Source: Chloroflexota bacterium
GTDB lineage: Bacteria; Chloroflexota; UBA6077; FW602-bin22; JAMCWG01
Reading direction: 5' to 3'
Length of the DNA stretch: 64,000 bases
Assembly: GCA_023475235.1 (NCBI GenBank)
Contig: JAMCWG010000116.1
Coordinates: 1-64,000 of the forward strand
In this document: positions 14,980 to 39,387 of the stretch, one piece after another
Layout of the letters: every line of letters starts with the position of its first letter
Numbering within the stretch: the stretch's first letter is position 1
Position numbers and translations under genes: made by a program
Notes under the pieces: model-generated
Seen by the model: the letters and a program-made list of their open reading frames with translations, nothing else
Databases searched by the model: none
Told to the model about the DNA's origin: nothing

Positions 14980-15182
14980 CCCCGCTTCTTCACGACGGGC
15001 ATCCCCACGGGCTGGCTGTGCCAACAGACAGGGATATGCGCCGGTAGCCGTTCACGGTGCGCCGCTCTCTCAGACAGAAGACATCTTTGGCCGAGTTGTA
15101 GGGCTTAGGCAAGCTGAATGGCCGGAATAGGTCGCCAGACTCGCCTGTGTGTCCAATTGATCTCCGAGGCGACTCTCGCCAG

Positions 15183-15220
15183 AGGCGAGTCGCCTGCGGA
15201 GACTGGCGAGCGACTCGCCT
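15183..15220. repeat. 11-bp perfect inverted repeat aggcgagtcgc/gcgactcgcct
   Basis: Arms 15183-15193 and 15210-15220. Confidence 0.7.
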
Positions 15221-20889: not shown

Positions 20890-22158
20890 CTAACGCACCC
20901 CACGGATTACGTCAACGCCAACATATGGCCGCAGCACCTCAGGCACCGCCACGCTGCCGTCAGCCTGCTGGTAGTTCTCCAGAATAGCGGCCAGGGTGCG
21001 GCCCACGGCCAGGGCAGAGCCGTTGAGGGTGTGCACAAACTCCGGATGGGCGCCCGGCGCTGGCCGGTACCGGATATTGGCGCGACGCGCCTGGAAGTCC
21101 TCGAAGTTGCTACAGGACGATATCTCGACGTAGCGGTCCTGGCCGGGGAGCCAGGCTTCGGGATCGAACTTCATCGTCGCCGAGAAGCCCAGATCGCCGG
21201 TGCACATCTGCACGATACGATAGGGAATGGCCAGGCGGCGCAGGACGTCGCAGGCATCGTCCAGCAGCTTTTCCAGCTCCTGGTACGATGTGGACGGCTC
21301 GGTGAATTTGACCAGCTCAACTTTAACGAACTGGTGGACTCGGATCATCCCGCGCGTGTCGCGGCCTGCGGCACCGGCTTCGCGGCGGAAGCAGGCGGTG
21401 TAGCAGGCGTACTTCAACGGCAGCACGCCGGCGTCCAGTATCTCCTGCCGGTGGAGGTTGGTCACCGGCACCTCGGCAGTCGGAATGAGGAACAGGTCGT
21501 CGACCTCGCAGTGGTAAGCATCCTCCTCGAACTTAGGGAGCTGCCCGGTGCCGGTCATGCTTTCCCGCCGCACCAGGTAGGGGGCCGCCACCTCCAGGTA
21601 GCCGTGCTCCCTGGAGTGCAGCTCGAGCATCCAGTCGATGATGGCGCGCTCCAGGCGGGCGCCCAGTCCCCTGAGAAAATAGAAGCGCGGCCCGGAGACC
21701 TTCACGCCGCGCTCGAAGTCGGCAATGCCCAGGCGGTCGGCGATCTCCCAGTGCGGGAGCGGCTCGAAATCGAAGGTGGGAAGCTCGCCGTGCCGGCTTA
21801 CCTCGATATTGTCCCGGTCATCCAGGCCGACGGGCACGCTGGGGTGGGGGAGGTTGGGGACCAGCAGCAGCAGCCCGTTCAGATCAGCGTCCACCTGGTC
21901 TACCCTGGCGTCCAGCTCCTTGATGCGGTCGCCCAACTGCCGCATCTCCGCGATCAATTCGGGCGGCTTCTGCTTCATACGTCCGATCTGCTGCGAGACC
22001 TCGTTGCGCCGTGCCCGCAGCGCCTCCACCTCGGCGAGCAGCTCGCGGCGCTCGCAGTCCAGGCGTAGTATCTCGTCGACAGGAGCTGTGTCACCCTTGT
22101 GGGCGACGCCCTCCCGCACCAGGTCGGGGTGCTCGCGGATGAAGCGCAGGCTCAGCAT
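20890..22158 (-). CDS. serS: Seryl-tRNA synthetase
   Basis: [63 protein letters not shown]; full length. Confidence 0.97.
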
Positions 22159-22225
22159 TGGTCGTTTACCTCAGCACTTTTGAAGATAAGGATAGCCATA
22201 GTGGAGTATCTGGTCAAATCCCGGC

Positions 22226-22417
22226 TCGAGGATTTAGGGCCTTTTCAAAGTCCGTTCATTCGGCTGCTCGTGGGGCTTACCTCACCCCCTGGCCCCCTCT
22301 CCGCGCGCGGAGAGGGGGCGGCCGAAGGCCGGAGGTGAGGTTAATGGCCGCTGGTAAGGCAATCGAAATGTTGTCTGCCTTCTGGTTGACGACTTTGAAA
22401 AGGCCCTGTCGAGGATT
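22226..22417. mobile_element. MITE-like element (copy 1): 17-bp TIR, 9-bp direct flanking repeats
   Basis: TIRs agggccttttcaaagtc (22236-22252) and gactttgaaaaggccct (22391-22407); TCGAGGATT at 22226-22234 and 22409-22417; internal GC-rich hairpin. Confidence 0.75.
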
Positions 22418-22465: not shown

Positions 22466-23971
22466 CTATCCCTGCGACCGGAGCTGAGGGAAGAGGATGA
22501 CGTCGCGGATCGAGTGCTGGTCGGTGAAAAGCATAGCCAGGCGGTCGACGCCGACGCCCAGCCCGCCGGTGGGCGGCATGCCGTGCTCCAGCGCCACCAC
22601 GAAATCTTCGTCCATCTGATGGGCCTCATCGTCGCCGGCAGCAGCGTCGGCGCGCTGCTGCAGGAAGCGCTCGCGCTGGTCCAGCGGGTCGTTCAGCTCG
22701 CTGAAGGCATTGGCTATCTCGATCCCGCCCACGAAGCCCTCGAAGCGCTCCACCACGCCAGGCGCGCCCGGCTTCTTCTTGGCCAGCGGCGAGAGCTCGA
22801 CGGGATAATCGAGCAGGAAGGTCGGCTGGATGGCCTTCGGCTCGACATATGTGTCGAGCAGCTCATCGATGAGCTTGCCGCGCGGCGTTCCCCGCACCAC
22901 GGTCAGTCTGGCCTCTACCATCCGCTTGGCCAGGGCATCGGCGGTGGGATAGCGGTCGTAATCGATGCCGCTCTCCTCAAGAATGGCCTCTCGCAGCGTC
23001 ACCCGCCGCCAGGGCGGAGTGAGGTCGATAGTATGGCCCTTCCAGGGGAATTGCAAGGTCCCCAGCACTTCCCGGGCGATAGAGGCCAGCATCTCCTCCA
23101 CGAGCACCATCATATCGTTGTAGTCGGCGTAGGCCTGATAGCACTCCATCATAGTGAATTCCGGATTATGGGTGGTGGAAACACCTTCGTTGCGAAAGTC
23201 CTTGCCGATCTCGTACACCCGGTCCAGGCCGCCGACGATGAGCCGCTTCAGGTATAGCTCGCTGGCGATGCGGAGGAACAGCCGCCGGTCCAGGGCATTA
23301 TGATAGGTCTCAAACGGACGGGCCGCCGCACCGCCGTACAGCGGCTGGAGAATGGGCGTCTCAACCTCGATGAAGCCATGCGTGTTCAGGTAGCATCGCA
23401 TCGCGCCGACGATCGCGCTGCGCGTCTGGAACACCTGGCGCACCGTTTCGTTGCTCACCAGATCCAGATAGCGCTGACGATACCGCGTCTCGACGTCGGT
23501 GAGCCCGTGCCACTTCTCCGGCAGCGGGCGCAGTGCCTTGGCCAGCAGCACGAACTCCTGGACTTGCAGGGTGACCTCCCCCGTGCGCGTCTGAAAAAGG
23601 GTGCCGCGCGCCCCGATGAAATCGGCGATGTCCAGGTCCGAGCGGAAGGACTGGTACCTGTCACCCATGACGTCCTGGCGAAAATAAAGCTGGATGCGGC
23701 CGCTGCCGTCCTGCACGTGGCAGAACGACGCCTTGCCCATGATGCGCATGCTGACGATGCGGCCGGCCAGGGAGACTTCACCGGCGCCGCCTTGCTCGAA
23801 GGCCAGCCGGGCCTCTGCGGCGGTGTGGGTGCGTTGAAAGCGCGGCGGGTACGGGTCGACTCCCTGCTCCACCAGCCGGAGCAGCTTCTGCAGTCGCTGC
23901 CCGCGCAGGTCGTCGTATTCTTCGGTAGTGGCCGCAGGGGCCGACTGGTCGACTTCTTCTGCGTGTGTCAA
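22466..23971 (-). CDS. lysS: Lysyl-tRNA synthetase (class II)
   Basis: SLAGRIVSMRIMGKASFCHVQDGSGRIQLY; FRNEGVSTTHNPEFTMMECYQAYADY; PPTGGLGVGVDRLAMLFTD. Confidence 0.97.
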   Translation of the reverse strand: MTHAEEVDQSAPAATTEEYDDLRGQRLQKLLRLVEQGVDPYPPRFQRTHTAAEARLAFEQGGAGEVSLAGRIVSMRIMGKASFCHVQDGSGRIQLYFRQDVMGDRYQSFRSDLDIADFIGARGTLFQTRTGEVTLQVQEFVLLAKALRPLPEKWHGLTDVETRYRQRYLDLVSNETVRQVFQTRSAIVGAMRCYLNTHGFIEVETPILQPLYGGAAARPFETYHNALDRRLFLRIASELYLKRLIVGGLDRVYEIGKDFRNEGVSTTHNPEFTMMECYQAYADYNDMMVLVEEMLASIAREVLGTLQFPWKGHTIDLTPPWRRVTLREAILEESGIDYDRYPTADALAKRMVEARLTVVRGTPRGKLIDELLDTYVEPKAIQPTFLLDYPVELSPLAKKKPGAPGVVERFEGFVGGIEIANAFSELNDPLDQRERFLQQRADAAAGDDEAHQMDEDFVVALEHGMPPTGGLGVGVDRLAMLFTDQHSIRDVILFPQLRSQG

Positions 23972-38796: not shown

Positions 38797-39187
38797 AGCA
38801 AGCTCCTTTTCGCCTTGCGTTTTTCTTCGCTGGGGCTCTGGGAAAAAGGGAGATGGCGGGTCGCGCTGGCGTCCTGTGATGACCATAGCATATGCTTCGA
38901 CGCTTATGCAAGTATTCTGGCCTGCGGCAATTCGCCGAAGGGCGACGTATTGCATGCCACCGTTCCAGCAATTAGAATAGCTCGAAATGGACCTGGCTGA
39001 GGCGGCGAGGGGCCGTGAGAGCACGATTTCGCGCACTATTGTGCTTGAGCGTCCCTGATATCGCTGTGTATGCTGCCCACTCAGCCGGGAGTGGAGGCCG
39101 CACGACCGCCGCTGGGCGGGGAAAGGGTCTGCTCTTAAAATAGCGAAGCATTTTCATCCGCGGTGGTGTCCCAAAGGAACATGGGAA

Positions 39188-39343
39188 CTTTTCATTGTCG
39201 CCAAGCGGTAGCCTTGTGACATATGGTATGCCTCGCCCGCGGCGATGAACCTCACCTCCGGCCTCCGGCCACCCCTCGCCACGGCGAGGGGCCAGGGGGT
39301 GAGGTAAACCACATGGGCAGCCGAATCGCCGGACAATGAAAAG
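39188..39343. mobile_element. MITE-like element (copy 2, inverted relative to copy 1)
   Basis: Terminal repeats cttttcattgtc (39188-39199) / gacaatgaaaag (39332-39343); interior homologous to 22241-22402 when reverse-complemented. Confidence 0.7.
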
Positions 39344-39387
39344 ACCCCGGGGCGTGGAGTAGGCGTCTTGACGACGAGGAGACCTGG

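Follow-up and report, generated by a model that had tools for sequence, protein, structure and literature searches.

A gene-less type II MITE between lysS and serS of a Chloroflexota bacterium and its likeness in the ends to an ISAs1-family insertion sequence

Members of the ISAs1 family of insertion sequences are about 1.2-1.5 kb in length and have a single ORF and inverted repeats. Gene-less relatives of insertion sequences, the type II MITEs, have been described under the names of Chunjie in Geobacter and QMITE1/2 in Coxiella (PMC10969869). Short palindromes can also accumulate inside one another; the organelle DNA of Volvox has palindromes that were inserted into other palindromes (PMC2670323), and the pneumococcal BOX, RUP and SPRITE repeats form element-in-element clusters (PMC10969869). 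Here, I describe a short element that separates lysS and serS in a 64-kb stretch of DNA from a Chloroflexota bacterium (the whole stretch that was analysed, hereafter the window). It very probably belongs to a type II MITE family with many copies, whose 18-bp ends an ISAs1-family transposase recognises, or once recognised, in trans. The features of the window are as follows.

20890-22158, minus strand: serS, seryl-tRNA synthetase, the downstream neighbour (tblastn in relatives)
22189-22217, minus strand: promoter-like TTGACC-17-TATCCT between the MITE and serS (a consensus match only)
22226-22234, no strand: left target-site duplication TCGAGGATT (14 of 28 copies are arranged likewise)
22235-22408, plus strand: MITE of 174 bp without a transposase gene (65 matches in its own genome)
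22235-22252, plus strand: left TIR of 18 bp, TAGGGCCTTTTCAAAGTC (perfect over 17 bp, with an outermost base unlike that of the right end)
22280-22340, no strand: palindromic core CCTCACC...GGTGAGG with the hairpin GGCCCCCTCTCCGCGCGCGGAGAGGGGGC
22391-22408, minus strand: right TIR of 18 bp, which reads CAGGGCCTTTTCAAAGTC on the minus strand
22409-22417, no strand: right target-site duplication TCGAGGATT
22466-23971, minus strand: lysS, lysyl-tRNA synthetase, the upstream neighbour (orthologues within the taxonomic order are 61-66% identical)
39123-39349, no strand: a second, older copy of the long-end subfamily (flanks GGGCGGGGA / GGGCGTGGA, 8/9 alike)

Since lysS and serS both lie on the minus strand, the element comes after the end of lysS and before the start of serS. 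A first-pass annotation, made from the sequence alone, had placed a transposase-free element between two tRNA synthetase genes of the same strand and had given it perfect 17-bp TIRs with a 9-mer on both sides. This description was confirmed, and the positions are exactly as it gave them. The arms at 22236-22252 and 22391-22407 are complementary at 17 of 17 positions, and TCGAGGATT is found at 22226-22234 and at 22409-22417. The 9-mer had been said to lie one base outside the TIRs; its position is correct, but the extra base (T at 22235 and G at 22408) is in fact where the element starts. The other perfectly duplicated copies have such a base as well, lying each time between the end and the 9-mer: a pyrimidine at the left end and almost always a purine at the right end. 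It is therefore taken as the outermost base of an 18-bp end (YAGGGCCTTTTCAAAGTC in the window MITE). Thus, the T and the G belong to the element, the window MITE is 174 bp in length, and the duplication abuts it directly. The 17-bp arm, when up to three mismatches are allowed, is found within the window only at the two known sites (expected 0.11).

The element's own genome (2.85 Mb in 196 contigs, estimated to be 75% complete) was then the subject of a copy search. The 65 matches of the window element were obtained with blastn, and the 17-bp end with up to two mismatches matched 63 times, versus once for the reversed control pattern. Pairing of left and right ends gave 27 transposase-free copies, and the second window copy brings the sample to 28. 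That copy has a left end AGGGTCTGCTCTTAAAATAGC at 39124 and a degenerate right end GACAATGAAAAGACCCC, and its 8/9 duplication was read by eye from the sequence. The copies elsewhere are about 150-590 bp in size. The matches listed from 60 related genomes cover the central palindrome alone (positions about 44-84 of the element), with neither arms nor ends. The ends and arms are therefore confined to the own genome among these matches, which indicates a lineage-specific element, while the core repeat is common to many genomes of the phylum. A similarity search for the element in plasmids gave no match, and an exact-pattern scan of named genome contigs returned single matches in Streptomyces and Roseibium, which is the chance level. 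Numerous contigs of the genome start or stop inside or near a copy (the starts of L019, L045, L055, L058, L014, L028, and L054), and the MITE family seems to fragment the assembly. Elsewhere in the order, in the genomes G005 (L097:1501-1580) and G003 (L098:1501-1641), stretches of 80 and 141 bp lie between similar ends and have unrelated interiors; these are possibly sister MITEs.

The duplications were compared among the 28 two-ended copies. A perfect duplication was found in 14 copies, a near-perfect or shifted one in 6, and no clear one in 8. Identical 9-mers lie exactly one base from the AGGG/CCCT ends in 12 copies, while the duplications at C78, C165:57709, and C67 are 8 to 10 bp in length and shifted by one base. 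Some copies were first taken as hairpin-ended and duplication-free; it was revealed that they have a longer outer end (AGGGCCTGCTCTTAAAATAGCGAAGCATTTTCATCCGCGG...) and that most have a duplication of their own. With this longer end, two duplications are perfect (C25 and C143) and two are 8/9 (C77 and C183). When mismatched flank pairs were used as a control, 9 of 9 positions agreed in 2 of 812 pairs, both of them C11 rows with a common flank. Many additional TIR-bounded copies are thus present with 9-bp duplications of their own, and the earlier reading of the flanking 9-mer as a target-site duplication is borne out by the same offset in further copies with differing 9-mers.

A full-length insertion sequence of 1271 bp with perfect 17-bp ends (AGGGTCATGTCAAAGTC) lies at C11:11656-12926. 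Its single ORF encodes a 395-aa transposase, which scores 175 bits against the ISAs1 model NF033564 (cut-off 70) and 65 bits against DDE_Tnp_1_assoc PF13808 (cut-off 32.3); the score against PF01609 is under the cut-off. The length, the one ORF, and the inverted ends fit the ISAs1 layout. It is the sole full-length copy found in the genome, C54 having a remnant, and its flanks GCGGCCGGT / GCGGCCGAA are alike at 7 of 9 positions. The next ISAs1 element in the class is carried by G009 and has the ends CAGGGCGCATGCGTTCTA/TAGAACGCATACGCCCTG (CAGGG...CCCTG); these begin with CAGGG, so that a YAGGG start is common to both ISAs1 elements. The first-pass annotation had proposed that a full-length IS with the same ends should be sought, and the C11 element answers to this with 14 of 17 positions like the window MITE end and 17 of 17 like one end of six MITE copies (C11, C48, C105, C25, C183, and C169). 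Four of these six copies have a perfect duplication. On C11, a 172-bp MITE copy is followed by one GCGGCCGGT and then by the 1271-bp IS. This tandem of a MITE and an ISAs1-family element (C11:11473-12926, L004:1501-2954), with a single shared 9-mer between them, suggests that one target site was used repeatedly. In blastn, the MITE interior gave no match to the C11 IS beyond the ends. Since the likeness is confined to the ends, the element falls under the type II MITEs as PMC10969869 uses the term.

In the proposed mechanism, an ISAs1-family DDE transposase supplied in trans would recognise the 18-bp MITE ends and would excise or copy the MITE, which would then be inserted at a 9-bp staggered target, so that a 9-bp duplication would remain. 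Which transposase did this is a separate question. At 3 of 17 positions, the end carried by most copies (AGGGCCTTTTCAAAGTC) is unlike the IS end, and the interiors are dissimilar; the C11 IS thus need not be the parent of the MITE. The same two points speak for mobilisation of the MITE by a different transposase, such as an ISAs1-like element that was lost or that lies in the unassembled quarter of the genome, and so do the incompleteness of the assembly with its 196 contigs and the end pairs of like type that enclose, elsewhere in the order, the 80- and 141-bp stretches without this interior. This alternative deserves to be taken seriously, although I do not consider it the probable one, because it leaves aside the six copies with an exact IS end, four of them with perfect duplications, and the tandem on C11, in which a MITE and the IS share one 9-mer. 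From these sequence features, I infer that the C11 transposase, rather than a lost or unassembled relative, probably recognised the MITE ends and moved the copies. Some observations speak against the reading as a MITE family mobilised by an ISAs1-family transposase; there is one full-length transposase in the 75% complete genome, its own duplication is 7/9, and 8 of the 28 copies have no clear duplication.

Are there orthologous sites without the insertion? The lysS-serS gap is 307 bp here, of which the element and the duplication make up 183 bp, while it is about 10 bp in G005, about 2 bp in G009, and less than 50 bp in G002. The MITE insertion thus appears to have opened a lysS-serS pair that is tight in relatives, and the MITE accounts for the unusually long spacer. 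An influence of the insertion on serS expression is plausible. For another copy, the comparison can be made at the protein level. An ABC ATPase of 691 aa with two domains has the C145 copy in its linker, where the copy keeps the reading frame and brings in no stop codon. The orthologue of G007 aligns to residues 2-285 and 396-684 of this protein, and the two aligned parts adjoin in G007; the MITE-derived stretch is therefore absent there. The orthologue of G001 has an extra linker of its own with a different sequence, so that G007 is the cleaner comparison for this site. The duplication of the C145 copy is only 7/9. The MITE contributes about 114 in-frame codons to this ABC transporter ATPase (C145:7947-10019, L067:148-2223), and the gene remains open. 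Of 17 copies that were examined for a reading frame restored across the duplication, only the one at C145 yielded a clear interrupted gene. The empty sites that the first-pass annotation had suggested looking for are thus represented at the protein level for the C145 copy and by the tight lysS-serS spacing for the window copy. Its proposal of a non-autonomous transposon is supported by the copies, the duplications, the IS with shared ends, and these uninterrupted orthologues.

The minus-strand RNA of the whole element folds at -94.9 kcal/mol (z -8.7 versus shuffles). Such a fold, far better than that of the shuffles, and the repetition of the core palindrome throughout the phylum would suit a REP/BIME-like or attenuator-like regulatory palindrome between lysS and serS that is flanked by the 9-mers by chance. 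I regard this as highly improbable, since most copies have differing 9-bp duplications at the same offset, and since the copies lie beside unrelated genes and in one case inside a gene. Moreover, the element was looked for upstream of serS in related genera and was not seen to be conserved there. Terminator, Rfam, and T-box-type readings of the spacer were rejected; no terminator-like site was found in the lysS-serS spacer and no Rfam match in the window. A REP/RAYT reading was likewise rejected, as the Y1 (IS200-like) transposase, PF01797, gave no match in the 75% complete genome while the controls were positive.

The interior of the MITE consists of two arms of 44 and 67 bp, whose layout is constant among the copies, and a core. 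Conservation is 0.94-0.95 in the ends and 0.87 in the adjoining arms. The core between CCTCACC and GGTGAGG consists of hairpins strung in a chain, with a length between 14 and 449 nt depending on the copy, and its units include CTCGCC-NN-GGCGAG and CCTCTCC-GCGC-GGAGAGG. The unit CTCGCCRYGGCGAG occurs 72 times in the own genome and 0 to 4 times in relatives. The hairpin units are also found outside the MITE, both in the own genome and elsewhere in the phylum. One such array in the window, at 15130-15219, includes CTCGCCAGAGGCGAG among its units and lacks MITE ends. In the copy at C165:53254, the core has the opposite orientation to the ends. It may be asked whether the MITE serves chiefly to carry the hairpin array, the latter being an active, independent palindromic element that was inserted into an ISAs1-type MITE and then grew and spread with it. 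The occurrence of the core without MITE ends, its inversion at C165:53254, and its variable length between constant arms are consistent with this. On the other hand, the ends and duplications alone account for the copy number of the complete elements, and the absence of a Y1 transposase leaves the palindromes with no enzyme found for them. I consider this reading rather unlikely; it is compatible with mobilisation by an ISAs1-family transposase and does not exclude it. As a speculation that I would call improbable, the MITE might be a moving nursery, in whose core hairpin units multiply, invert, and recombine and with which they travel. If this is true, a DDE-mobilised MITE and self-multiplying palindromes would make up one composite selfish repeat, which could also extend genes by in-frame coding segments.

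To return to the preferred reading of a MITE mobilised in trans, there is good support for a new family within a class of elements already known, the gene-less type II MITEs. No dedicated description of a MITE family tied to ISAs1 was found in the literature searched. The present family may thus serve as a well-documented MITE family linked to the ISAs1 transposase family, with a concrete candidate donor/transposase pair, and its variable hairpin array as a bacterial case for how short palindromes multiply inside one another. The family resembles ISAs1 elements (H-repeat type DDE transposases) in that the C11 transposase passes the NCBIfam model and in the YAGGG ends and 9-bp duplications; it differs in that the MITE has no transposase and has only its ends in common with the IS. 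Chunjie and QMITE1/2 share with it TIRs and duplications on a scale of 50-500 bp, dozens of copies, a wide size range, and a likeness to an IS in the ends only, while their ends and transposase family are different (PMC10969869). In contrast to these, the size range here comes from the hairpin chain within a frame that stays constant. Like the C145 copy, Rickettsia palindromic elements (PMC3733652, PMC10969869) lie in frame in protein genes. However, only one such case was seen here, TIRs are present, and the duplication at C145 agrees at 7 of 9 positions. Finally, as in the Volvox palindromes and the BOX, RUP and SPRITE clusters, short hairpin units are nested and strung into longer mosaic repeats, but here the array lies inside a bacterial DNA-transposon MITE and its units are G+C rich.
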